A DNA stretch of 57,049 bases, from positions 1 through 57,049 of the forward strand of contig NZ_JYFN01000009.1 of the NCBI RefSeq assembly GCF_000948395.1, given 5' to 3'. This stretch comes from Frankia torreyi (GTDB lineage: Bacteria > Actinomycetota > Actinomycetes > Frankiales > Frankiaceae). The notes below the pieces were generated by a model. That model was not told where the DNA came from and made no database searches. It worked only from the letters and a program-made list of their open reading frames with translations. Of the stretch, positions 978 to 14,322 are shown piece by piece. The stretch's first letter is position 1. Every line of letters begins with the position of its first letter. Both the position numbers and the translations under genes were made by a program.

Positions 978-1258
978 GCGCTCTGTTGACCTCGTTCACG
1001 GAACGCCGCGAGCACCTCGTCGGTCGTGTAGACCCCGCCTCGGGCGATCTCCTCACGGGCCACCCGGAGAGAGGACACCGTCTCGGCGTCGGAGAGGATC
1101 TCCAGAGTCTCGTGCAGACTCTCCCACTCCTCCACCGAGACGACCACTGCCGCCGGCCGGCCGTTGCGCGTCACCGTCACCTGGTCGTGCTGCTCCTGAA
1201 CCCGGGTCACCAACTCGGACAACCGGGCCTTGACCTCCGCCAACGGGAGCGTATCCAT
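974..1258 (-). CDS. relB: Phd/YefM-family antitoxin
   Basis: A 94-aa antitoxin. Residues 1-55 carry the Phd/YefM pattern: PLAEVKARLSELV, then VTVTRNGRPAAVVVSVEEWESL. The C-terminal half is a charged helical tail that would wrap the toxin. I chose ATG 1258 because a longer in-frame start at 1366 would cross the promoter; a perfect TATAAT lies seven bases before this ATG, so the message is probably leaderless. Such proteins bind their own promoter and are destroyed by Lon/Clp proteases (family knowledge). The 5' 206 bases are also read in another frame by the upstream glycosyltransferase gene. Confidence 0.9.
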   Translation of the reverse strand: MDTLPLAEVKARLSELVTRVQEQHDQVTVTRNGRPAAVVVSVEEWESLHETLEILSDAETVSSLRVAREEIARGGVYTTDEVLAAFRERGQQSA

Positions 1259-3011
1259 GGTCAGAATTATAGTCACCTGCCCCGGCGGACGGAGACAACC
1301 GCTGGGACGCGTCAGGGCCGCAGTGGGCGGGCGGGATGTCGGGGCGGCAGCCGGGAGGGAGGACACGGCGGATCTCGATCTCGCCGTTGCCGAAGGACTT
1401 CAGCACCACCGAGTGGTGCAGGGCTTCGGCGACGATCGGGACCTCGGCAAGCACCGAGTCCGGGGGCTTGCCCATCATCAGGTAGTCGACGTCTTTCCAG
1501 CCGTGCGGGAAGTGGCCGCGGACCTCCGGATCGAGGTCGAGCTTGTAGAACCACACCGGCAGCGGTCGGCGGCCGGCGACCACGAGATCGGTCCAGGCGA
1601 TGTCGTCGGTGATGACCGTGCCATTGTCGTGGATGTGGGCAAGGAACCAGCGGGTGGCGTCTCGGCTCGGGGCGCTCGCGTCCACCGTCAGCGCCGTGTG
1701 GATCTTCGGCGTCCAGTCCCAGGCCAGCGTCACCACCGAGCCGACCACGGCCACGGCCACCGCACCTCGACGCAGTCCGGTCCACACCGCCGTCAACCAT
1801 CCCGGCACGCCCCGCGCGCCGCCGTCGCCGTCGCGTTCGCCGTCAGCACCGGCGACTCGCAGCGGGGTGCGGGGCAGCGCGGCGTCGAGGAGGCCGGCGG
1901 CGCACAGGGCCGCGAACGGCAGCATCGCGGTGACGTACGGGTTGGGCAGGTAGCCGTTGCGGAAGATGAAGCCGAACTGGAGCAGCAGCAGCGCCGAGAC
2001 CACCCGTAGGCGGCGCAGGGCGAGCAGCGGCACGGCCGCGGCGATGCCCGCCAGCACCAGGTACGGATCCAGGTCCAGCCAGGAGCGGACCACGTTGTAG
2101 GTGTCGCTGCCGGTGTCGAGCACGCTGCCGCTCGGCGCCCGGTCGAACAACTGCCAGCGCACCGCCCATTCCAGCGAGACGTGGCCGGGCCCCTCGAACA
2201 GCTCGTTCTTCGCCGCCGCGTACAGGATGTAGATGCCGCAGATCCCGAGCAGGCAGCCGAGGAAGTTGCGCCGCACGAACCGCCAGTTCCGCGAGTCCCG
2301 GTGTTGCCAGAGCAGCACGTACAGCCCGGGCAGGAACAGCAGCGTCGTCTCCTTGGACCAGAACGAGAACGCCATGAACGTCCCGGCGAGCGCCGCCGCG
2401 GCCACGCTGCGCCGCGGGGAGGCCGCGCAGACGAAGGCGGCGAGCAGCCACATCACCGCGATGTTGTCCAGGAACGCCATCCGCTGGTACCACAGCGCGA
2501 GTGGCGACAGCGAGAAGACCAGCAGCGCGAGGCCGGCGAAGAACCGGCGCAGGCCCAGCAGCCGGCCGAGCCGGTACAGCAGCACACAGCTCACCAGGTG
2601 CAGCAGGAACATCAGCTCGCGGGCGGCGGTGACCGCCGTCGCCGCCCGGTGGAAGCCGTCGGTCAGCTTCGTGTAGATCGCGATGAGCAGCCAGCCGCCG
2701 AAGGGGTGGTCGTACCAGTAGGTGTAGTGGGCGATGCGGTTCCAGTACTGCATCGAGTAGGCCTGGGCGGCGTAGGTGCCCTCGTCGTCGGTGACCCGCC
2801 CGGGCCAGCCGTCGAAGTTGACCCCGTGTACCACCGCGACGATCGGCAGGAGCACTGCGAGCAGGGCGAGGCTGCGCCGGTGGGCTCGCGCGCCGTCCGC
2901 CACCCGCGCGCTCAGCAGCCGGGCCCGGTCGGCGGCCCAGGCGGCGGGGCTCGACGCCACCGGCCGTGGCAGGGTCTCGTCGAGAGCGTCGAACACGTCG
3001 GGGACGGTCAC
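1053..3011 (-). CDS. PMT/ArnT-type (GT39-like) membrane glycosyltransferase
   Basis: A 652-aa polytopic membrane protein with about ten hydrophobic helices after residue 48. The first extracytoplasmic loop carries TDDEGTYAAQAYS (acidic residues 75-77), the position of the catalytic acidic residues of PMT/ArnT enzymes, which move sugars from polyprenyl phosphate onto acceptors outside the membrane. The GTG start at 3011 overlaps the upstream gene's stop (GTGA), so the two are coupled. The natural protein probably ends near PPGCRPDIPPAHCGP; the frame then runs on through the antitoxin promoter and 206 bases of its gene without a stop. The last 65-90 residues are therefore probably an acquired tail. 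Acceptor unknown. Confidence 0.8.
   Translation of the reverse strand: MTVPDVFDALDETLPRPVASSPAAWAADRARLLSARVADGARAHRRSLALLAVLLPIVAVVHGVNFDGWPGRVTDDEGTYAAQAYSMQYWNRIAHYTYWYDHPFGGWLLIAIYTKLTDGFHRAATAVTAARELMFLLHLVSCVLLYRLGRLLGLRRFFAGLALLVFSLSPLALWYQRMAFLDNIAVMWLLAAFVCAASPRRSVAAAALAGTFMAFSFWSKETTLLFLPGLYVLLWQHRDSRNWRFVRRNFLGCLLGICGIYILYAAAKNELFEGPGHVSLEWAVRWQLFDRAPSGSVLDTGSDTYNVVRSWLDLDPYLVLAGIAAAVPLLALRRLRVVSALLLLQFGFIFRNGYLPNPYVTAMLPFAALCAAGLLDAALPRTPLRVAGADGERDGDGGARGVPGWLTAVWTGLRRGAVAVAVVGSVVTLAWDWTPKIHTALTVDASAPSRDATRWFLAHIHDNGTVITDDIAWTDLVVAGRRPLPVWFYKLDLDPEVRGHFPHGWKDVDYLMMGKPPDSVLAEVPIVAEALHHSVVLKSFGNGEIEIRRVLPPGCRPDIPPAHCGPDASQRLSPSAGAGDYNSDHGYAPVGGGQGPVVRVGDPGSGAARPGDGDAQRPAGGSGRLGGGVGESARDSGDPLRRRDGVLSPGGP
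1266..1271 (-). promoter_or_regulatory. -10 box (TATAAT) of the toxin-antitoxin operon
   Basis: Read on the minus strand this is a perfect TATAAT, very rare in this GC-rich window. Seven bases separate it from the antitoxin ATG, placing the expected transcription start at or one base before the start codon. The -35 region is poor (TTGTCT lies about 21 bases upstream). The flanking GGTGACTATAATTCTGACC is partly symmetric and could be the antitoxin's operator. Confidence 0.6.
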
Positions 3012-4999
3012 GATGCCGCCTCCAGCCCGAAGCGACCCGTGCCGGCCCCGGCACCGTGATGGGCACCGGAATGCGACGTCTTCTCCCACTCCAGTCGGCC
3101 GCGCACCAGGCGGGCGGTGGCCCGCACCGCGGCGATCGACAGCGCGAGCTGGTAGAACGGCGCGCTGAGGATGAGCCGGACGCTGTCCCACCGGCCGACG
3201 GCGAGCTCGTAGGCGTCGGTGAACTCCCGGAAAGCGGCCTGTTCCGAGAAGACGGTCATCACGGAGGCGGCCAGCGGCAGCCAGAACACGATGACGAGGC
3301 CCGTCGGCGCCGCGAGGAACAGCGTGAGGACTCCCGAGACGGGTAGCAGCACCCCGGCCATCGCCTGGAAGAACGGCATGGCCAGCATCTCCGCCGCCAT
3401 CATCCGCTGGCGGCCCCCCGGCAGCAGGCGCCAGTCCCCCTTGAACAGGACCTGCATGAACCCCATCATCCAGCGGGTGCGCTGGACGATGAGCTTCGTC
3501 AGGCTCTCCGGCGTCTCCTCCCGGGTCGTCAGGTCCGGGTGGTAGAACACCGTCGTGCGGATGCCCGCGACCGAGGCCCGCACGCCCAGGTCGCAGTCCT
3601 CGGTGAGGCAGGCGACGTCCCAGCCGCCGAGCCGCTCCAGCACGGACCGGCGGATGAACACGGTGTTCCCCCCGAGGGGGATGAAGCGCGCCCGTGCCTG
3701 GAAGCGCAGGCGGGACATGAACCAGATGTAGTACTCCAGGCAGTTGCGGGCCCGCCACCAGGAGGTCCCGGTGTTCCACCGGCGCAGCGCCGCGCGCAGC
3801 CGGCCGACGCCGGCGGGCCGCGGCTGGCGTCCCGGGCCGCGCACGTTCATGAGCTGGACGCCGCCCTGGAAGATGCCGACGTCGGCCTGGCGCAACGCGA
3901 GGGTGTTGACGTAGGTGAGCAGGCCGCCGGCGATGAGCGACTCGGCGTCGACGATGCCGACGATGTCCCCGGTGCAGTGCCGGCGGGCGTCCTCCAGGGA
4001 CAGCGGCTTGCTGCGCTGGCTGCCCTGCGGCGCGATGACGCGGACGTTGGGATGGCGGGCGGCGATCTGCTCGGCGATGCGCCGGGTCGGCCGGTCGACC
4101 TCGTCGTGGGAGACCATCACGACCAGTTCCAGCAGGTCGGCCGGGTAGTCACCGGCGAGGATCTGGGTCAGGGTCCGGCCGAGGATCGGCTCGTCGCGGG
4201 CGGGAATGATCAGCGAGAACCGGTGGCGCGGCGCCTGGACGTCGGCGAGGTCGACGTGGTGCACCCGCTCGGGTAGCTGCCAGCTGTACTGGCCGCGGAC
4301 CAGGGTGAGGATGGCGACGAGCAGCATCAGCAGCGACACCCCCGTCCACGCGGCGAGCAGCACCGCGTGGTGATGCTGTGCCGCGCGGACCGCCAGCGCC
4401 GCGGCGAGCGGCGCGGCGGCCAGGACGGACAGCGCGCGACGGCGGTGGCGCGCCGCGGGCACGGGCGGCTCGTGCCGGGACAGCAGCAGCGTGCCACCCA
4501 TCGCCGCCGCCGCCCCCAGCGTCGCGGCGAGCCAGCCGGGCAGGTCGGGGCCGTCGACCGAGGCGACCCGCAGGTCCGGGGAGCCGGCGACCGTGAACAC
4601 GTACCAGCCGACGGACTCGCAGGCGAGCTGGACGATCCGCGGCAGCCGGGCGCCGCGGTGATCGACCCGCCCGGCGGCGCGGACGACGGCGAGACCGCCG
4701 CCGGCACCACCCGGTCTCGGCCAACCCGCGGCCGGGCGGCGGGGGCCGGCGCGACCGAACGTGCGGGGCGCGAGGACGGCGAGCGCGGCCGGAACCAGGT
4801 AGGCCAGGCCGTCCTCGACCGCCAACGGGCCGGCGAACAGGGCGGCGAGCGCAACGTGCAGCGCGATCCCCCAGGCCGCCGTCGCCAGCCGCCGGCGACG
4901 GGCGGACACCCGCGGGTCGCGGTGGTTGTGCGCCGATGAGAGCCGGGCCGCGCCGGACGGAACCGCGCGGGGCCGCGGTGCTTCGAAGTCGGATGTCAC
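3008..4999 (-). CDS. cslA: Cellulose-synthase-like GT2 glycosyltransferase (CslA-type)
   Basis: A 663-aa processive-type GT2. After several N-terminal membrane helices, the GT-A domain begins near residue 261 (FSLIIPARDEP). Key motifs are VDAES (about 349), LTEDCDLG (about 464) and QRTRW (about 504), the D, DxD, TED and QxxRW set of cellulose, chitin and hyaluronan synthases. Membrane helices follow. I took GTG 4999 rather than an ATG at 5134 because the region between holds 17-bp repeats unlikely in coding DNA. It lies in one cluster with a GlxA-like oxidase and Sco, resembling the Streptomyces cslA-glxA locus that makes a hyphal-tip glycan, so beta-glycan synthesis is inferred. Confidence 0.85.
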   Translation of the reverse strand: MTSDFEAPRPRAVPSGAARLSSAHNHRDPRVSARRRRLATAAWGIALHVALAALFAGPLAVEDGLAYLVPAALAVLAPRTFGRAGPRRPAAGWPRPGGAGGGLAVVRAAGRVDHRGARLPRIVQLACESVGWYVFTVAGSPDLRVASVDGPDLPGWLAATLGAAAAMGGTLLLSRHEPPVPAARHRRRALSVLAAAPLAAALAVRAAQHHHAVLLAAWTGVSLLMLLVAILTLVRGQYSWQLPERVHHVDLADVQAPRHRFSLIIPARDEPILGRTLTQILAGDYPADLLELVVMVSHDEVDRPTRRIAEQIAARHPNVRVIAPQGSQRSKPLSLEDARRHCTGDIVGIVDAESLIAGGLLTYVNTLALRQADVGIFQGGVQLMNVRGPGRQPRPAGVGRLRAALRRWNTGTSWWRARNCLEYYIWFMSRLRFQARARFIPLGGNTVFIRRSVLERLGGWDVACLTEDCDLGVRASVAGIRTTVFYHPDLTTREETPESLTKLIVQRTRWMMGFMQVLFKGDWRLLPGGRQRMMAAEMLAMPFFQAMAGVLLPVSGVLTLFLAAPTGLVIVFWLPLAASVMTVFSEQAAFREFTDAYELAVGRWDSVRLILSAPFYQLALSIAAVRATARLVRGRLEWEKTSHSGAHHGAGAGTGRFGLEAAS

Positions 5000-5200
5000 T
5001 GGAGTACCTGCCTGACGGGAAGGGGACGCGGCGGCATGACGCCGGGAGGCCGAAGCGCCGGGATGCCGGAGCGGCGGAGATGCCGGACTGGCGGAGATGC
5101 CGGACTGGCCGGGTGCCGGCCTGGCGGGTCGCAACGGCGGGATGCCGCCGCGGGCGGCGCGTGCGCTCCGGGATTGCGCGCCGTGGAGGCTGGGGTCGGA
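5000..5200 (-). other. Gap between sco and cslA-like gene
   Basis: About 200 bases with low-complexity GC-rich sequence and a 17-bp direct repeat. No gene. An internal promoter for the cslA-PMT pair could lie here but no clear boxes are visible. Confidence 0.5.
5073..5106. repeat. 17-bp direct repeat, two perfect copies
   Basis: The unit GGCGGAGATGCCGGACT occurs at 5073-5089 and 5090-5106, with degenerate half copies to either side (ATGCCGGAGC upstream, GGTGCCGG downstream). A unit not divisible by three argues that this stretch is not translated. Confidence 0.85.
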
Positions 5201-5899
5201 TCAGAGGGCGGCGACGAGCCTCGGCAGGTCGGCGACGTAGTCGGCGACCGTCGTGTCGGCGAAGTAGCGCACGCGGACGCGGTCGTCCGGACCGATTCCG
5301 AGGACCTGCGAGGCGTGGCTGACCAGGTACGCCGGGCCGCCGGCACCGGCACCGGCACCGGCACCGGCGGCCGGGTCGGCGAGGGCCACCGGCACGCCGA
5401 CCGCCTGCTGCGCCGCGTCGATCTGCGCCGGGGTGCCGGTCAGCCCGACGAACCCGGCGTCGAACTGGGCGAGCCAGCGGCGCAGCACCGCCGGGGTGTC
5501 CCGCGCCGGGTCGGTGGTGACGAAGACGACCGTCACCTTCGCCGCGATCGCGGGCCCGGCGACCTGTCGGGCCGCCGCAAGGTCCGCCATCGTCGTCGGG
5601 CACACGTCGGGGCAGTGCGTGTACCCGAAGAACAGCAGCGTGGCGCGGTCGGCGGTGGCGCGGGCGAAGTCGTAACGATGCCCGGCGGTGTCGGTCAGGA
5701 CGAACGACGGGCGGGGCACGGCAACCCCGGGCACGGTGCCATGCCAGCCACCGCCGGCCGTGGCCGCCGCACCGGAACCGGACGGCGGCCCGTCGGCCAT
5801 CCCCGCGGACGCGCCGCCCGCGGAACCGGCCCCGCCGCAGCCGGTGAGCGCACCGATCCCGACGGCGGCGACCAGCGCCACCATCCCCCGCCGCGCCAT
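5201..5899 (-). CDS. sco: SCO1/SenC-family copper chaperone lipoprotein
   Basis: A 232-aa lipoprotein. The signal ends in the lipobox LTGC (Cys21). A thioredoxin fold follows with the copper motif CPDVCP (Cys96, Cys100) and the third ligand, His195 in YLVSHAS. Sco proteins hand copper to cytochrome oxidase CuA or, in Streptomyces, also to GlxA (family knowledge). Here the gene lies 13 bases behind the small secreted protein and downstream of the GlxA-like gene, so it most likely loads that oxidase. An Ala-Gly run (about 178-187), encoded by a 6-bp repeat, sits in a loop just before His195. Confidence 0.9.
   Translation of the reverse strand: MARRGMVALVAAVGIGALTGCGGAGSAGGASAGMADGPPSGSGAAATAGGGWHGTVPGVAVPRPSFVLTDTAGHRYDFARATADRATLLFFGYTHCPDVCPTTMADLAAARQVAGPAIAAKVTVVFVTTDPARDTPAVLRRWLAQFDAGFVGLTGTPAQIDAAQQAVGVPVALADPAAGAGAGAGAGGPAYLVSHASQVLGIGPDDRVRVRYFADTTVADYVADLPRLVAAL
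5338..5369. repeat. 6-bp tandem repeat inside sco
   Basis: About five copies of CGGCAC/GGCACC, encoding the Ala-Gly run before the copper-binding His of Sco. In-frame length changes would alter only a loop. Confidence 0.75.
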
Positions 5900-5912
5900 C
5901 ACCGGCACGTCG

Positions 5913-6461
5913 TCACGGCGCACAGAGCACCGTGCCCCGTGCGGCCGCGGGCGCCGCGCCGGCGAGCCGCCGGGTGTCCTGACCGGTGACCCGGACGGAC
6001 CCGATTCCCTGTTCTCGCAGGTAGGCGCAGTCGAGGCGCCGGCCGGGCGGCGGGGTGCGGGGCACGCAGATCCGCCGGCCGGTGTCGGCCGCGACGTAGT
6101 TGTAGTCGCAGCCGTCCAAGCCGACCGGGACCGGGGAGGGCCTACCGTTACCTCGGGGCACGACCCGACCGGACAGCCCGGCGGCCGGCGCGACGGCAGC
6201 GACGATGCCCTGTCCAGCGGAGTCATGGCCAGCAGAGTCATGGCCGGCGGAGTCCTGTCCGGCGGGACGGGGATGGCCGGAGCCGCCGCCGGGCCAACCA
6301 CCATGGCCGATCACCCCGGCGGCGCCGTTGACGAGCGCCACCGCGAGGGCGATCGTCACCAGCACCCGCCGCCGCCCCCCGGCCGCGGGAACGGGCGGGA
6401 TGGGCGGGACGGGCCGGATGGGCGGCCCTCCCAGGTGCACGCTCAACCGACCCGCACCCAT
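5913..6461 (-). CDS. Small secreted or membrane-anchored Cys-containing protein, unknown
   Basis: 182 residues: a cytoplasmic Pro-rich N-terminus, one hydrophobic helix near 29-50 (VLVTIALAVALVNGAAGVI), a linker with three DSAGH/DSAGQ units (15-bp DNA repeat near 6225-6265), and an extracytoplasmic C-terminal region with four cysteines (GCDYNYV, RICVP, LDCAYL, VLCAP) that could form two disulfides. It overlaps the end of the GlxA-like gene by 19 bases and precedes sco by 13, so it is co-expressed with both. A GTG at 6440 is an alternative start. I recognise no family; a partner in oxidase maturation or surface anchoring is only a guess. Confidence 0.7.
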   Translation of the reverse strand: MGAGRLSVHLGGPPIRPVPPIPPVPAAGGRRRVLVTIALAVALVNGAAGVIGHGGWPGGGSGHPRPAGQDSAGHDSAGHDSAGQGIVAAVAPAAGLSGRVVPRGNGRPSPVPVGLDGCDYNYVAADTGRRICVPRTPPPGRRLDCAYLREQGIGSVRVTGQDTRRLAGAAPAAARGTVLCAP

Positions 6462-9244
6462 CGGGCGACCGAGGGAACCCCGGCGGTGTTCTGGGCGAAC
6501 ATCATGTAGTACCCCGGCGGAAGCAGGTTCGGATTATCGGGGACGTCGACCGAGATCTGGCCGCCCTGGCTGCCGGCCGAGACCGGCAGGTCGACGCTGC
6601 GCTGGTTGGGATCGGCCTGGTGGGTGACCGACGCGGGCCGCAGCAGCGTGACCCGGCCGATGTCGCCGTCGACCGTCAGCGCCTGCCGCGAGCCGTAGCC
6701 GAACGTGTCGGCCGCCTGGGTGATCGCGGGCCGTTGCCGGTCCATGTACCACGGCCGGTAGACGGAGATCGCCTGGCTGAACGACCCGTCGAGCGGGTTG
6801 TTCCCCACCGCCGCGACACTGCCGTCGGGCAGCAGGAACGCCTGCGAGTGGTAGGTCCGGTCCTGGGGGTCCGGCGGGACGGAGGTGAAGGTGTTCGCGA
6901 CCGGATCGTAGATCGACGCCTCGTGCACCGGGTCGGAGCGCAGGTGCCGTCCGCCGCCGGTCTCCAGGACCTTCCCGTCGGGCAGGATCACGGCGCTGAC
7001 GTACATCTTCGCCGCGGGCAGATCCGGGCCGGCCTGCCAGTGCGGGTCGGGCTGGCGCAGGTCGATGAGGTCGGTGGCGTCAATGGCGTCGGCCCCGGCG
7101 TCGCCGTTGCCACCGCCCAGGGTCAGCACCCGCCCGGCCTGGGCCGGCGGGAGCAGCACCGAGGCGCCCTGGTCGCGCAGGTTCACGTGGCGCAGGCCCG
7201 GCACGTCGTTGACCGTCGCCGTGGCCGGGTCGTAGATGTTCGAGCCGGCCTCGGTCGGCGCGTTGCCGAAGGTGTGGACGCCGGCGTAGAACAGCCGCCC
7301 GTCCGTCATCAGCTTCAGCTCCGGGTAAAGGCCCCAGAAGAAGTACGTCTGCGGCACCTGGGCGTCGGGGAGCCAGGTCTGCCGGGAGCTGTCGAACATC
7401 TCGGTCGCGACGCTGCCGGCCGCGTTCTGGTCCAGGCCGCCCACGGCGAGGACGTTGCCGTCGCCCAGTTCGGTCAGGCTAGGATACCAGTGGCCGCCGC
7501 CAGGCAGGTCGTTCGTCGCCGTGTACGTGTCGGCCACGGGATCGAAGACGTAGCTCTTCTCCAGGCCCTTGTAGTTGGCCGTCGCGGTGGAGTAGGCGGC
7601 CGTTCCGCCAGCCAGCAGGATTCGACCGTCCGGGAGCTGGACATGGCCGGAGCAGAAAAGGTCATCCGCAACAGGAACATCTTTGAACTGACCCGTATTC
7701 GGATTCCAGACGGTGGACTTGAAGGTGTGCGCGTCGAAGGCGGACAGGTCGTTTCCGGAACCGGCGACCAGCAGCACGTTCCCGGTGTGCAGGACGCTGG
7801 CGTGGACCGATCGGACGGAGCTCGGATAGCTGAGCGTCTGCCAGGATCCGCCGCAGTCGGAGGCGCAACCACCCGGCGGCGGGGGCGGGACGGGACCGGG
7901 GTCGCCGCCGCCGGTGTAGTCGACGCGGATCTGCGCCCCGCCGGCCCGGTCGTAGTACTCGGTGACGATCGTGTGGACGCCCGCGGTCACCGTCGGGGTG
8001 GCGGTGAAGGTGGTCGGGCCCTGGTCGTTCCAGCCGTCGATCACCCGGGTGTCGTCGACGTAGACACGCACCCCGTCGTCGGCGGTCGCGGTGATCGTGA
8101 TCGGGCCGGCGGCGAAGCGGTCGACCCGAGTCCAGCGGGCGGAGAAGGCGTCCGGGCCGATGCCGGCCACGCCCGGACCGCCGTCGCCGTAGTCGTGGTG
8201 CAGGCCGGTCTCGCAACGCGCCGGCGTCGGCGTGCCGGCGAGCGTGACGTTGCCGAAGTACTGGGCCGACCATTGCAGGCCGTGGCAGGCGGCCGCGGGT
8301 GTGAGGGTGTAGCCGACCCGCGCGGTCGCACCTCCGGTGTGCTCGTAGTACTCGACCCGGATGGCATGGCTGCCGGCGGTGACCTCCGTGCTCGCCGTGT
8401 ACGTGGTGGGGCCCTGATCACGCCACCGGTCGATGATCGGCTGGTCGTCGAGGTAGACCCGGATCCCGTCGTCGGCGGTGACGGTGAACGCCAGAGTGCC
8501 GGCGGCGAAGGTCGCCGTCCGCGTCCACCGGGCGGAGAAGTTGTCGGCGCCGATGCCGGTCAGGCCGGGACCGTCGTCGCCCCAGGCGTAGTCGACGCCC
8601 GCCGAGCAGCGGGGCACCCCGGTGCCGCTCAGCGCCCGGTTCGGGAAGTAGGTGCCCGCCCACTCGTCCGCCGCGCAGTCGGGCCCGGCGCCGCCCGGCG
8701 CCGCCGGCCCGCCGGTGAGGTCGAACTCGACCATGGCGCCGCCGGCGTTCTGGTAGTACTCGACGACGATCGTGTGGACGCCCGCGGTCAGGGTGCGGGT
8801 GCCGGTGAACGTCTGCGGGCCGTGGTCACCCCAGCCGTCGGCGACGGACTGCCCGTCGATGAGCACCCGGACGCCGTCGTCGCCGGTCACGCTCGCCGTG
8901 TAGGAGCCGGCGGCGAGGGTGAACTGACGGGTCCAGCGCACCGAGTAGCCGGTGGTGCCGATGCCGGTGACGCCGGGGCCGTTCGCCGACCAGTCGAAGT
9001 CGATGGCGGCGTCGCAGCGCTGCCCGGCCGGGTCGCCCCCCAGATCGGTCCCGGAGTGGAACTCGGCGTTCCACTGGTCGTCCAAGCAGGTCTGCGCCGA
9101 CGCCGCCGGCGAGCCCGCGACCAGCAGGACGAGCTGCCCGACGGCCGAGGCCAGCACCACGGCGACCAGGGCCCGGCCGGACCGGGTCGGGCGGGCGAGC
9201 CGGCGCGACCGCAGATCACGTGGCCGCAGATCACGTGGCCGCAT
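6443..9244 (-). CDS. glxA: GlxA-like galactose-oxidase copper radical enzyme with three PA14 domains
   Basis: A 933-aa secreted enzyme. ATG 9244 follows GAGGAGG. A signal or anchor segment (VAVVLASAVGQLVLLVAG) is followed by three PA14 modules of about 130 residues, each with a DDGVRV/DDGIRV signature, a Pro-rich linker, a kelch galactose-oxidase domain and a DUF1929-type C-terminal domain. The copper-radical set is present: Cys in DLFCSGH (thioether partner), Tyr in GHWYPS, Tyr-His in DRTYHSQ, and His in VTHQADPNQR. The enzyme should oxidise a primary alcohol or aldehyde with release of H2O2, as Streptomyces GlxA does at hyphal tips. PA14 modules usually bind glycans; the three ahead of the catalytic domain are an unusual addition. 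Confidence 0.9.
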   Translation of the reverse strand: MRPRDLRPRDLRSRRLARPTRSGRALVAVVLASAVGQLVLLVAGSPAASAQTCLDDQWNAEFHSGTDLGGDPAGQRCDAAIDFDWSANGPGVTGIGTTGYSVRWTRQFTLAAGSYTASVTGDDGVRVLIDGQSVADGWGDHGPQTFTGTRTLTAGVHTIVVEYYQNAGGAMVEFDLTGGPAAPGGAGPDCAADEWAGTYFPNRALSGTGVPRCSAGVDYAWGDDGPGLTGIGADNFSARWTRTATFAAGTLAFTVTADDGIRVYLDDQPIIDRWRDQGPTTYTASTEVTAGSHAIRVEYYEHTGGATARVGYTLTPAAACHGLQWSAQYFGNVTLAGTPTPARCETGLHHDYGDGGPGVAGIGPDAFSARWTRVDRFAAGPITITATADDGVRVYVDDTRVIDGWNDQGPTTFTATPTVTAGVHTIVTEYYDRAGGAQIRVDYTGGGDPGPVPPPPPGGCASDCGGSWQTLSYPSSVRSVHASVLHTGNVLLVAGSGNDLSAFDAHTFKSTVWNPNTGQFKDVPVADDLFCSGHVQLPDGRILLAGGTAAYSTATANYKGLEKSYVFDPVADTYTATNDLPGGGHWYPSLTELGDGNVLAVGGLDQNAAGSVATEMFDSSRQTWLPDAQVPQTYFFWGLYPELKLMTDGRLFYAGVHTFGNAPTEAGSNIYDPATATVNDVPGLRHVNLRDQGASVLLPPAQAGRVLTLGGGNGDAGADAIDATDLIDLRQPDPHWQAGPDLPAAKMYVSAVILPDGKVLETGGGRHLRSDPVHEASIYDPVANTFTSVPPDPQDRTYHSQAFLLPDGSVAAVGNNPLDGSFSQAISVYRPWYMDRQRPAITQAADTFGYGSRQALTVDGDIGRVTLLRPASVTHQADPNQRSVDLPVSAGSQGGQISVDVPDNPNLLPPGYYMMFAQNTAGVPSVARWVRVG

Positions 9245-10661
9245 CGGTGGCCTCCTCTCCCGGTGCGCCCGCCGGCCAGGACAGGCCACCCGGCCGACTC
9301 CCGCCCCGGGCCCGGCCGGACCGGAATGCCCGTGACGGTCCCGCGGTCCCACTCGGGGTCGGCGTGGGTGATCCCGCCGGCCGGCGACGGTAGACCAGTC
9401 GCTCCACCACCAGGTAGCGGATGATCACCGCGGCGGCCAGCGACAGCAGGGTCGCCGTGCCGACGCCGAACCCCCACCGGCCGACGAGCAGCGCGAGCAG
9501 CGGCAGCCGGACGACGAGGTCGAGGTTGTTGATGATCGCGAACGCCGGGTAGCGGCGGAGCCGGGAGCCGGCCAGGCGGTCCCAGACCAGCAGCTCGCAA
9601 CCCGCGAAGTTCCAGGCGATCGCGACCTGCGTGGCGAGGATCGCCGCGGCCAGGTAGTGCAGGCCAAGGTGGTGCAGGACGGCGGTGCCGAACAGGTTCG
9701 GGACGGTGCCGGACGCCCCGACCAGGGCGAACCGCGCCGGGCGGGGCACCCGCAGCGAGAACAGCCGTCGGACGAACCGCACCCCCTCGGACATCGAGGC
9801 GTTCGAGGCACCGGCGTGCCGTTCGGCGAAGGCGTAGCCGACCTCCCGGATGCGCAGCGGGCCGGCGGTGGCCAGCAGCTCCAGCAGGATCTTGTAGCCG
9901 TCGGGACGCAGTCCCGCCCGGTCGACCGCGGCCACCCGGACGAGGAAGAAGCCGCTCATCACGTCGGACACCCCGCGCAGCCGCCGCGGGAACGCCAGCC
10001 GGCAGAGCAGGTTCGAGCCGGTGGAGACGAGGTGACGGGTGGTGCCGGCGAGACCTGAGGCGCTGCCGCCGGGCGCGTAACGGCTGCCGATGACCACGTC
10101 GGCGGCGTCGTGCAGAGCCGCGGCGAGCAGGGCGGGGATCGTCTCCGGCGGATGCTGCAGGTCGCCGTCGATGATCACGGCGTAGGGCGCCGCGCACAGG
10201 GCGAATCCCTCGCTGACCGCGCCACCGAGACCGCCCACCCGGTCCCGCGGCGCGCGGTGGTGCACCCGCACCGGCAGGCTCACCGTCGGCCGGACCCGGG
10301 CGATCGCCTCGGGTGTTCCGTCGTCGGAGTCGTCGACGAAGATGACCTCGCCGGCGAGGCCCCGCAGCGCCTCATCGAGCCGGCGCAGCAGGGGCTCGAT
10401 GTTGTGCGCCTCGTTGCGGGTCGGCACCACGACGGACAGCCGCGGGGCCACCGGCACGAGGCGGTGGGCGGTCGTCGGCGGGTCGAGGTCGAGGTCGGGG
10501 ATGGCGTCGGCGGGCAGGGGCAGGGGCAGGTCAGCCCTGGCTCCGCCCGCCGCCGCCGCGCCGGCCAGGCCGTCCGGTGGGGTGCGGGGTTGGGGCAGGA
10601 CCGGCCCGCGCAGGAGGCCGGTGAGGTCGTCGGGAAGATCCCCGGTACTCGTCGGCGTCAT
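9231..10661 (-). CDS. Polyprenol-phosphate sugar transferase fused to GtrA
   Basis: 476 residues. The N-terminal GT2 domain is of dolichol-phosphate mannose synthase type (LSVVVPTRNEAHNIEPLL, DDSDDGT, DGDLQHPPE) and should make polyprenyl-phosphate-sugar. The C-terminal third (from about 310) is a four-helix GtrA domain (RFALVGASGTVPNLFG) that may flip or deliver this lipid-sugar. The product is the right donor type for the PMT-like enzyme at the other end of the cluster. ATG 10661 follows GGAGG and overlaps a possible leader ORF (ATGA). The 3' end overlaps the GlxA-like gene by 14 bases. Confidence 0.88.
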   Translation of the reverse strand: MTPTSTGDLPDDLTGLLRGPVLPQPRTPPDGLAGAAAAGGARADLPLPLPADAIPDLDLDPPTTAHRLVPVAPRLSVVVPTRNEAHNIEPLLRRLDEALRGLAGEVIFVDDSDDGTPEAIARVRPTVSLPVRVHHRAPRDRVGGLGGAVSEGFALCAAPYAVIIDGDLQHPPETIPALLAAALHDAADVVIGSRYAPGGSASGLAGTTRHLVSTGSNLLCRLAFPRRLRGVSDVMSGFFLVRVAAVDRAGLRPDGYKILLELLATAGPLRIREVGYAFAERHAGASNASMSEGVRFVRRLFSLRVPRPARFALVGASGTVPNLFGTAVLHHLGLHYLAAAILATQVAIAWNFAGCELLVWDRLAGSRLRRYPAFAIINNLDLVVRLPLLALLVGRWGFGVGTATLLSLAAAVIIRYLVVERLVYRRRPAGSPTPTPSGTAGPSRAFRSGRARGGSRPGGLSWPAGAPGEEATDAAT

Positions 10662-10804: not shown

Positions 10805-11175
10805 GACGAATTTCCCCCAGCTGGAGCCGAAAAAGAAACAGCGAATCGGGCCATTTTCGTGACACCCCCGGCCCGAATCCGGCCTGACAACTCCCGAGGC
10901 CGAGCGAAAAATTACCGTACGGTCGCGACAGGTGGGCACAAGCTCCCACCAGGCACACTCCGAGACACAACCGGCGTCGCTACGAAGCCCGTCGAGCGGC
11001 CCAACCAGCACGGAAATCCGCGACATTCTCCGCAGTAATCCTGCGCATCTTTACCGGGTTCGACGACCGCCTTCTCCCGCGACCACGACGGGAACGAAGA
11101 ACGCTGTTCATCGCATACGTCCGATGCCCGACAAGCAAGCCTATAGCCCGGATAGGGCGAGTCCGGACCGCCGCG
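10805..11175. other. Upstream region of the glycan cluster
   Basis: About 370 bases between the FAD/Fe-S oxidoreductase 3' end (11176) and the glycan cluster, with somewhat lower GC. It must hold the promoter of the minus-strand cluster. I see no confident -35/-10 pair and no gene. Confidence 0.5.
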
Positions 11176-14163
11176 TCAGGTGGCGGCGGTCCGGGGCGCG
11201 ACGGCCGAGGGCGCGACGGCCGAGGGCGCGGCGAGCAGCTCGGCGAGATGGCGGCCGTGCCGGGTGGTGATGTGCGCGGCCTGGGTGCGGCAGGAGAACC
11301 CGTCGGCGAGCAGCACCGCGTCGGCGGGTGCTGCCGCGGCCGCTCGGCCGATGCCCCGCTCCGCGATGGCGACGGAGACGTCGTAGTGCCCGGCCTCCAT
11401 CCCGAAGTTGCCGGCAAGGCCGCAGCAGCCGGCCAGCACCTCCAGCCGGGCGCCGGCCGCTGAGAGCAGGTCGCGGTCGACCGTGAAACCCATCACCGCG
11501 TGCTGGTGGCAGTGCGGTTGGGCGAGCACCCGCACCCCGTCGAGGCGCGGCGGCGTCCAGCCGGGGGTGGCCGCCAGCAGCTCGGCGAGCGTGCGGACCC
11601 CGCCCGCCAGCAGGGCCGCGGCCGGGTCGTCGGGAAGCAGCTCGGTCAGGTCGCCACGCAGCACCGCGGTGCAGGACGGTTCCAGGCCGACGATGGGCGT
11701 GCCCGCTCGGGCGTACGGCGCCAGGCTCGCCACGGTCGCCCGCAGCCGTCGGCGCGCCCCGTCGAGCTGGCCGGTGGTGATCCAGGTCAGCCCGCAGCAC
11801 GCCGGGCCGGGCGGCACGATCACCCGGTAGCCGGCCGCGGTCAGCACCTCGACCGCCGCTCGGCCGACCTCGGGCGAGAACGACTCGGTGAACGAGTCGA
11901 TCCAGAGCACCACGTCCCGGTCCCCGCCGTCCGCCGGCGCCGCCCGCCGCCACCAGCGGCTGAACGGTTCGTCCGCGAACGCGGGGACGTCGCGGCGGGG
12001 ATCCATGCCGCCGAGGCGCAGCAGGGTCCGCCGCGCCGCGGGCCGGGACAACACCGCGTTGACCAGCGCGGGCGCCCGGCTGACGAGGCGGGCCCAGCGC
12101 GGCAGCCAGCCGAGGACGTAGTGGCCGACCGGCCGGATCCGGCGGCGGTGCGCCCGGTACAGCACCTCGGACTTGTAGGTCGCCATGTCCACCCCGGCCG
12201 CGCAGTCGTGGGCACAGGCCTTGCAAGACAGGCACAGGTCCAGCGCCTCGGCGACCTCCCGGGACGCGGGGCCGCCGCGGACCAGCGTCCCGTTCGCCAT
12301 CTCCTGCAGCACCCGGGCCCGCCCGCGGGTGGAGTCCTTCTCGTCCCGGGTGGCCAGGAACGACGGGCACATGAACCCGCCGGCCGCCGACGTGTCCGCC
12401 CGGCAGGTCCCGAGCCCCACGCAGCGGTGCACGGCCCGCCCGAAGTCCCCCGCGTCGGCGGCGAAGGCGAAGCCACCGGCGCGGGGCAACGGGCGGGCGG
12501 CGGGCAGGCGCAGGTCGGCGTCTACGGGCCGGGGCCGGACCAGCACGCCCGGGTTGAGCAGGTCCGCGGGGTCGAAAAGGTGCTTGAACCCGGCGAAGGC
12601 GGCGATCGCGGCCGGCGAGTACATCCGCGGCAGCAGCTCGCTGCGGGCGCGGCCGTCGCCGTGCTCGCCCGACAGCGACCCACCGTGCGCGGCGACCAGG
12701 TCGGCGGCCTCGCCGAGGAAGGCACGCACCCGGCCGGGCGCTGCCCCGAGCGGCAGGTCGAGCCGGACGTGAACGCAGCCGTCGCCGAAATGACCGTAGG
12801 GCACCCCCGCCAGCCGGTGGGCGCGCAGCAGCTCCTCGAAGTCGCGCAGGTAGGCGCCGAGCCGCTCGGGCGGCACGGCGGCGTCCTCCCAGCCGGGCCA
12901 GGCCGGCTCGCCGTCGGCGGTCCGCCCGGCCAGCCCCGCGCCGTCCTCCCTGATCCGCCACAACGCGCGGCTCTCGGGCCCGGTCGCCAGCACGCGGACC
13001 GCCGCCGTCCCCGCGTCGGCCGCCAACGCCCGGCCGGCCGCCAGGGCCTGCTGTGGAGTGTCCCCACCGACCTCGACGAACAGCCAGCCGGTGCCGGCCG
13101 GCAACGCCGGCACCGCGCCCGCCCCCCGGTGGCGGCGGACGATGTCGACCAGCCGGGCGTCCATCCCCTCCATCGCCAGCGGCCCGTGCGCCCGCAGGGG
13201 CGGCACCGCGTCCGCGGCGGCCGGCATGTCGGGATAGCCGAGCACCACCATGGCGGTCGCCGGCGGGGGTGCCACCAGCCGCACCGTCGCGCCGAGTACG
13301 ACCACGCAGGTCCCCTCGGTGCCCACCAGCGCTTTGGCCAGGTCCGCGCCCCGCTCCGGGAGCAGGTGCTCCAGGGAGTAGCCGGACACCTGGCGGCCGA
13401 ACCGCCCGAGCTCCGTGCGCAGGGTTGCCAGGTTGGCCCGGACGAACGCGTCGAGCCCGGGGACCTCGTCGCGCTCGCCGACGCCGGCACCCGCGCCGAC
13501 GCGCAGCCGGCGGCCGGTGCCGTCGAGCACATCGAGAGACAGCACGTTGTCCGCGGTGCGACCGTAGGCGATCGCGCGCGAACCGCAGGCGTTGTTGCCG
13601 ATCATCCCGCCGAGGGTGCAGCGGGCGTGGGTGGACGGGTCCGGGCCGAAGCGCAGGCCATGGCGACCGGCGGCGGCCTGCAGCCGATCGAGGACGACCC
13701 CGGGTTGCACGGTGGCGGTGCGTGCGACGGGGTCCAGCGCGACAATGCGGTCGAGGTGCCGGCTGACGTCCACCACGACGCCGGGGCCGACCGCGTTGCC
13801 GGCGATCGAGGTGCCGGCGCCGCGGGTCGTCAGCGGGGTGCCGGTGGCCCGGCAGACCTCGGCGACCGTCGCGATGTCGTCGACCTCCCGCGGGAACACC
13901 ACCACCGCGGGCGGCACCCGGTAGTTCGACGCGTCCGACGAGTACTCCGCCCGCCGCCGCGCGGAGGCGTCGACGATCGACGCGCCCGGCCGCTCGCCCA
14001 GCGCCGCCCGCAGCCGGGCGACCAGCTCGGCCCGGTCCGCGCCGCCGGGGTCGGTGGCCGCCGCACGGCCGGCGGCCCGAAACTGTCGGACCCGGGCGAG
14101 ACGATGCCCCCGTCCCGCCCCTGGCAGCGCCCGATCCCGCGCCCTGTCCCCGTCCCGTGTCAC
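11176..14163 (-). CDS. FAD-linked oxidase fused to a GlcF-like Fe-S/CCG module
   Basis: A 995-aa fusion of GlcD-type and GlcF-type parts. The FAD_binding_4 domain covers about 65-230 (PLTTRGAGTSIAGNA, GMIGNNACGSRA), followed by the FAD-oxidase C-terminal domain to about 510 (GEHGDGRAR). Two 4Fe-4S motifs follow: CVGLGTC (about 579) with MCPS, and CLSCKACAHDC (about 643). Two CCG segments lie near 787 and 908. The family oxidises 2-hydroxy acids (D-lactate, glycolate, D-2-hydroxyglutarate) and passes electrons to the respiratory chain; the exact substrate is not readable. GTG 14163 with AAGGA upstream is preferred to GTG 14199. It stands alone between the glycan cluster and helD. Confidence 0.88.
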   Translation of the reverse strand: MTRDGDRARDRALPGAGRGHRLARVRQFRAAGRAAATDPGGADRAELVARLRAALGERPGASIVDASARRRAEYSSDASNYRVPPAVVVFPREVDDIATVAEVCRATGTPLTTRGAGTSIAGNAVGPGVVVDVSRHLDRIVALDPVARTATVQPGVVLDRLQAAAGRHGLRFGPDPSTHARCTLGGMIGNNACGSRAIAYGRTADNVLSLDVLDGTGRRLRVGAGAGVGERDEVPGLDAFVRANLATLRTELGRFGRQVSGYSLEHLLPERGADLAKALVGTEGTCVVVLGATVRLVAPPPATAMVVLGYPDMPAAADAVPPLRAHGPLAMEGMDARLVDIVRRHRGAGAVPALPAGTGWLFVEVGGDTPQQALAAGRALAADAGTAAVRVLATGPESRALWRIREDGAGLAGRTADGEPAWPGWEDAAVPPERLGAYLRDFEELLRAHRLAGVPYGHFGDGCVHVRLDLPLGAAPGRVRAFLGEAADLVAAHGGSLSGEHGDGRARSELLPRMYSPAAIAAFAGFKHLFDPADLLNPGVLVRPRPVDADLRLPAARPLPRAGGFAFAADAGDFGRAVHRCVGLGTCRADTSAAGGFMCPSFLATRDEKDSTRGRARVLQEMANGTLVRGGPASREVAEALDLCLSCKACAHDCAAGVDMATYKSEVLYRAHRRRIRPVGHYVLGWLPRWARLVSRAPALVNAVLSRPAARRTLLRLGGMDPRRDVPAFADEPFSRWWRRAAPADGGDRDVVLWIDSFTESFSPEVGRAAVEVLTAAGYRVIVPPGPACCGLTWITTGQLDGARRRLRATVASLAPYARAGTPIVGLEPSCTAVLRGDLTELLPDDPAAALLAGGVRTLAELLAATPGWTPPRLDGVRVLAQPHCHQHAVMGFTVDRDLLSAAGARLEVLAGCCGLAGNFGMEAGHYDVSVAIAERGIGRAAAAAPADAVLLADGFSCRTQAAHITTRHGRHLAELLAAPSAVAPSAVAPRTAAT

Positions 14164-14322
14164 CCCACCATCCTTGCTGCCGGACGGCGCCTCCCGCACG
14201 GGATCGGCCCGTTCGCCCGGACCAGCCGATCCGTCCCAGCCACACCGACCCCGGAGGTCACGATTCGCCGGCGGTCCGGACCGGCCGTCCGGACACCGGC
14301 GGTCCGGACACCGGCCGTCCGG

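Follow-up and report, generated by a model that had tools for sequence, protein, structure and literature searches.

The minus strand of the window, by which we mean the whole 57,049-nucleotide stretch of Frankia torreyi DNA analysed here, encodes a galactose-oxidase-like protein close to membrane glycosyltransferases and a Sco-type copper chaperone. A first-pass annotation had read this locus as the CslA-GlxA-Sco partnership known from Streptomyces tip growth, joined by lipid-sugar genes and with an oxidase that holds on to its glycan through three PA14 modules. We asked whether the locus is such a version of a known system or a system in its own right.

Gene layout and predicted products

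Read 5' to 3' on the minus strand, the operon comprises a DPMS-type gene with a GtrA domain, a PA14-bearing oxidase gene, a small-protein gene, sco, a GT2 synthase gene and a PMT-type gene. The genes originally named for this cluster are all real, but the interval given for it, 3008-10661, omits the PMT-type gene (about 3011-1053), and the small gene (6461-5913) had been missed. The oxidase start (ATG 9244) overlaps the end of the DPMS-type gene, the small-protein start (ATG 6461) overlaps the oxidase stop, sco begins 13 nt after the small-protein gene, and the synthase stop and PMT start overlap in a common GTGA. The sole junction with a gap, of about 200 nt, lies between sco and the synthase gene, all others overlapping or nearly abutting.

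The first gene of the operon (9231..10661, minus strand) is predicted to encode a DPMS-type GT2 polyprenyl-phosphate-hexose synthase with a C-terminal GtrA transmembrane domain. Pfam matches to Glycos_transf_2 (5.5e-23) and GtrA_DPMS_TM (3e-13) place it in the dolichol/polyprenyl-phosphate mannose synthase type with GtrA domain. The fusion that the first-pass annotation had singled out is present but is ordinary DPMS architecture, the P. furiosus DPMS structure 5mlz matching residues 73-385, across both domains, with an E value of 4e-44.

The oxidase gene (6443..9244, minus strand) would encode a secreted AA5 copper radical oxidase paralogous to GlxA, with a putative signal peptide, three PA14 modules, a kelch propeller and a galactose-oxidase-like E-set domain. 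Its N-terminus has one hydrophobic segment followed by PAASA-QT, which by eye we judged to be a cleavable signal. Pfam detects PA14 in three stretches (5e-37), each module having a DDG motif (at 122, 258 and 389), and the E-set domain at 5e-25. Residues 500-968 align with the crystal structure of S. lividans GlxA (4unm, E 9e-81), and all copper-radical residues are kept: C531, W586, Y587, Y798, H799 and H875, numbered from ATG 9244, C531 being the cysteine that takes part in the Tyr-Cys link. The combination of propeller, E-set domain and cofactor residues is that of an AA5 copper radical oxidase, as which we would class the protein.

Next on the minus strand, the small-protein gene (5913..6461) encodes one hydrophobic segment and a four-Cys domain. 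It is a relative of the Excalibur-like domain at the C-terminus of a Streptomyces oxidase described below. No Pfam match, Excalibur included, was found for it in Frankia. Sub-threshold Excalibur matches (E 4e-4 and 0.009) and a DxDxDG-like stretch are confined to its homologues in Streptomyces and in a second locus of one Frankiaceae genome. In its linker a DSAGH repeat varies in copy number between strains. The adjoining gene (5201..5899, minus strand, start ATG 5899) matches SCO1-SenC at 9e-30 and has the CxxxC and His residues within the motifs FGYTHCPDVCP ... VSHASQ, the features by which it is predicted to be a Sco-type copper chaperone. Maturation of S. lividans GlxA requires Sco (PMC4736821).

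The predicted membrane GT2 glycan synthase (3008..4999, minus strand) probably starts at GTG 4999 rather than at 5134, and this GTG is also kept in the Casuarina strain CcI3. It matches Glyco_tranf_2_3 (9e-54), and an alignment reveals conserved SHDE, DAES, TED and QRTRW motifs, the set expected of processive GT2 synthases, to which we would assign it on that basis. Partial matches to CelA and PgaC span the TED-QxxRW region; the best curated GT2 models, including those for non-polymerases such as HpnI, all score far under their cut-offs. The last gene (about 1053..3011, minus strand, start GTG 3011) would encode a polytopic PMT-type (GT-C-like) transferase. Its own Pfam PMT match is sub-threshold (E 0.078), but homologues at about 40% identity from Streptomyces and others exceed the PMT/PMT_2 cut-offs, and the motifs DDEGTY and YTYWYDHP are invariant. 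PDB sequence searches with this protein, as a single sequence or as a profile, found nothing, and AlphaFold2 models of the synthase and the PMT-type protein reached a pLDDT of 36, too low to be of use, from shallow alignments of 4-5 close homologues.

Directly downstream of the PMT-type gene, in the stretch from 1258 to about 700 on the minus strand, lies a Phd/YefM-family antitoxin gene (ATG 1258-974) followed by a RelE-like frame, likely a toxin-antitoxin pair. In CpI1 (the window strain) and in F. alni the PMT frame continues into the antitoxin gene for about 70 codons. Upstream, an FAD oxidase gene (11141-14245) was considered as a member of the system and dropped; only in Frankia is it a neighbour of the operon, and in the genera g13 and g14 it was not seen at that place.

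A separate oxidase clade in a genome with a canonical CslA-GlxA locus

The genome of the window strain has its own cslA-glxA locus, in which cslA, glxA, the GH6-like gene cslZ and sco are found together on another contig (C143). A cslA-glxA locus with sco was previously reported for Frankia (PMC4736821). The window synthase aligns with the CslA of this genome at 28% over 158 aa only, and no CslA or GH6 gene lies within the window operon. The window oxidase shares 42% identity with GlxA across 484 aa and scores 392.4 bits against the NCBIfam GlxA equivalog model NF052501, below its cut-off of 800. The large insertion that forms domain 2 of GlxA is absent from it, and absent too from Frankia's own GlxA.

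In a maximum-likelihood tree of 35 oxidases, which is unrooted and has several outgroups on long branches, the window oxidase falls into one clade with its orthologues from Frankiaceae and a second oxidase of Streptomyces (support 100/99); the GlxA proteins of Frankia and Streptomyces make up another (97/99). The window operon looks less like a version of the CslA-GlxA system than like a sister of it.

The likeness to CslA-GlxA-CslZ of Streptomyces lies in an AA5 oxidase next to a membrane GT2 synthase, together with a Sco (PMC4736821), and Frankia's CslA-GlxA-CslZ locus has a sco as well. The window operon differs in having another GT2 synthase, no GH6 gene and the additional DPMS-GtrA and PMT-type genes. 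Its oxidase differs from GlxA in clade, in bearing PA14 and in its putative cleavable signal, and both systems occur in one genome. That the operon is the tip-growth system itself, as originally annotated, we regard as very improbable. The 42% identity to GlxA, the complete set of active-site residues and the presence of Sco speak for it; against it stand the true cslA-glxA-cslZ-sco locus elsewhere in the genome, the position of the oxidase outside the GlxA clade, its score against the GlxA model and a synthase that is not CslA.

Two observations concern the canonical loci of relatives. In QA3 a run of N interrupts cslA (L051, about 3500-3700), and an assembly gap may explain why published Frankia tables list bcsA as 0 for this strain. 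Another Frankiaceae genome (G022) has two separate cslA-glxA loci (L046 and L047).

Conservation, exchange and loss of the oxidase module

The nearest named relatives of the window strain are Alnus-infective Frankia. In three Frankiaceae genera (the nitrogen-fixing Frankia, g13 and g14) the whole six-gene set recurs with its order and strand unchanged, at 50-70% identity. This order is kept in QA3, AgB32 and F. alni, in eight genomes of g13 and g14 and, as far as their contigs extend, in canadensis and nodulisporulans. The conserved order and strand in three genera, together with the overlapping or nearly abutting junctions, argue that the operon is not a chance assembly. The gene-order comparison proposed by the first-pass annotation thus bore out its grouping of GT2 synthase, GtrA lipid-sugar synthase, PMT-type transferase, copper oxidase and Sco, the added genes included. 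The small protein is present at every oxidase-bearing Frankiaceae locus whose contig extends to its position. The claim that the oxidase carries three PA14 modules holds for the window, but the number is not fixed, oxidases of the family having one, three or four.

Eighteen of 35 Frankiaceae genomes encode the oxidase, its catalytic part being 63-100% identical. The synthase is found in 20, including all 18 with the oxidase. The two genomes with a synthase and no oxidase are CcI3 and G010; the G010 contig stops inside the small gene, and its missing oxidase is possibly an assembly gap. Both genes are absent from all eight genomes of genus g15, one of which we take to be the non-symbiotic EuI1c, and from a genome of the window's own genus (G005, 88% complete). 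A g14 genome, G033, has a second, diverged copy of the system (L036 11869-13955 and L070 404-5714), with DPMS, PMT, synthase and Sco on one contig and, on the other, a small protein and a PA14-less oxidase with a CBM-like end; this copy is closest to the Streptomyces type.

The second Streptomyces oxidase was found in 37 of 101 Streptomyces species, and the neighbouring transferases were checked in three. We assign these genomes to Streptomyces on our reading of the tree, where a named plasmid oxidase from Streptomyces clusters with their canonical GlxA copies. At the three loci (L068, L069 and L071) synthase, PMT, DPMS-GtrA and a same-clade oxidase are adjacent and follow one another in that order, with identities to the window proteins of 40%, 38-40%, 43-47% and 50-51%, respectively. 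Among eight Streptomyces genomes tested, six have both kinds of oxidase and two the second kind only.

These clusters differ from the window operon in four ways. The gene order is permuted. A CBM-like N-terminus replaces PA14, one homologue matching CBM_4_9 at a sub-threshold E of 0.05. The oxidase ends in a domain that Frankia encodes as a protein of its own, the small protein. No Sco was found within the three loci; Streptomyces sco sits in another operon (PMC4736821). No PA14 was found in any Streptomyces oxidase examined, so that a Streptomyces GlxA with the same three modules, which the first-pass annotation had named as the observation that would count against it, did not turn up. Its idea of an oxidase that grips its glycan survives in kind: PA14 arrays are exchanged for an unrelated CBM-like module in Streptomyces, which on sequence grounds suggests a carbohydrate-holding head. 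Beyond these genera, three other actinomycetes (G104, G108 and G137) have the synthase and PMT with no oxidase detected nearby. No such cluster appears in the annotations around plasmid-borne oxidases of Streptomyces, Nostoc, Pseudonocardia and Gloeothece, and the Sinorhizobium record is unannotated.

The Casuarina-infective strain CcI3 represents a natural deletion of the oxidase module. Oxidase, small protein and Sco are deleted, and DPMS, synthase and PMT are intact (69-78% identity). The scar (L044 9477-9926) consists of a 57-residue oxidase fragment, a stop codon and the last 20 residues of Sco; ahead of the oxidase fragment lies a short SGRCL repeat. No other AA5 match was found in the CcI3 genome. 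Between CcI3 and other strains the three transferases have pairwise dN/dS values of 0.16-0.26, estimated roughly by the Nei-Gojobori method from stop-to-stop frames. The Sco values involving AgB32 and CcI3 were set aside, a stop codon lying within the compared frame. The low values after loss of the module indicate that the transferases stay constrained without it. At the level of gene presence, the Frankiaceae genomes demonstrate a one-way dependence: the transferases do without the oxidase, and every genome with the oxidase has the synthase too.

Proposed function and its alternatives

By a modest margin of belief, we favour the reading that this is a second glycan-assembly operon, apart from CslA-GlxA, that couples synthesis, lipid-sugar decoration and oxidation by an accessory copper oxidase whose glycan-binding head is exchangeable. 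Making or extending a glycan at the membrane would fall to the GT2 synthase. A hexose would be loaded onto polyprenyl phosphate by the DPMS-type GT2, its GtrA part helping to present the lipid-sugar outside, where the PMT-type enzyme would move the sugar to an acceptor, probably that same glycan. With its PA14 modules the secreted oxidase may hold the product, as a PA14 pair of RsgI3 binds pectin (PMC4711584), and convert a primary alcohol, expected to be the hexose C6-OH, to an aldehyde, yielding H2O2; the aldehyde could, as a guess, cross-link the polymer at the surface or make it stiffer. Sco would provide copper for the Tyr-Cys cofactor, and a tethering or helper role for the oxidase is conceivable for the small protein. 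The sequences themselves show which genes are present, how they are ordered and coupled, that the active site is conserved, that the oxidases fall into two clades with exchanged modules, and that the oxidase module is dispensable; what the glycan, its acceptor and the oxidase substrate are, and the biological role, we conjecture from the protein families.

The decoration step resembles teichoic acid glycosylation in Gram-positive bacteria, for which a GT2, GtrA and GT-C route has been proposed (PMC5836110). In CsbB/YfhO and Lmo2550/GtcA/Lmo1079 a polyprenyl-phosphate sugar is made inside, a GtrA flippase is proposed and a GT-C enzyme transfers the sugar outside (PMC5836110). Unlike those systems, the window operon has a predicted GT-C of PMT type rather than YfhO type, and a GT2 synthase and an oxidase of its own. 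The oxidase shares its catalytic fold and cofactor residues with fungal AA5 galactose oxidase but belongs to a bacterial clade, bears PA14 and is linked to glycan synthesis.

The transferases and the oxidase might have other targets. The oxidase could target glycans that are foreign or belong to the host, such as plant cell-wall sugars during colonisation, or mainly make H2O2, its linkage reflecting shared regulation of surface or symbiosis functions. The closest PA14 of solved structure is that of RsgI3, whose PA14 pair binds pectin (PMC4711584), the cluster is missing from all eight g15 genomes, the presumed non-symbiotic EuI1c among them, and CcI3 dropped the oxidase and retained the transferases. 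Yet the oxidase never occurs without the synthase in the 18 Frankiaceae genomes, the same linkage exists in Streptomyces, the gene overlaps favour a joint function, and G005 lacks oxidase and synthase together; we consider a host-directed role unlikely.

We would give about as little credence to a synthase that is not a polymerase but adds one or a few sugars to a lipid or short acceptor, DPMS and PMT then building a glycolipid or glycoprotein that the oxidase modifies. PMT-type enzymes often glycosylate proteins, and no curated GT2 model, polymerase or HpnI-like, comes near its cut-off; the conserved D, DAES, TED and QRTRW of processive synthases and the partial CelA/PgaC matches point the other way. 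The transferases might glycosylate proteins or lipids instead of decorating what the synthase makes. CcI3 and the three actinomycetes with synthase and PMT indicate that they do not need the oxidase.

The second oxidase clade bears on earlier counts of these enzymes. Of 28 Streptomyces genomes surveyed in 2013, all except three had a single protein of GlxA architecture, and the survey ascribed extra copies to cslA-glxA duplication (PMC3543389). Papers on Frankia, with an identity cut-off of 50% that would miss a paralogue of the window type, count one glx gene in each genome (PMC9194555). No account of the second cluster turned up in the open-access literature that we searched, and that literature gave nothing relevant on FRAAL1601-1606, or on PA14 or GtrA together with galactose oxidase.

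An oxidase clade with its own synthase, PMT and lipid-sugar genes means that these bacteria may produce, and oxidise, another surface glycan besides the known one. More broadly, and with slightly less than even confidence, we propose a second copper-radical-oxidase glycan system in filamentous actinobacteria: a polymer made by a synthase other than CslA would receive lipid-linked sugar on the outer side of the membrane and would then be oxidised to aldehydes by an enzyme whose binding head was exchanged between lineages, with whole lineages dropping oxidation and keeping the polymer. The second oxidase occurs in about a third of Streptomyces, where the loci are genetically tractable. With these loci and the natural deletion in CcI3, the effect of a radical oxidase on its glycan becomes testable by gene removal.
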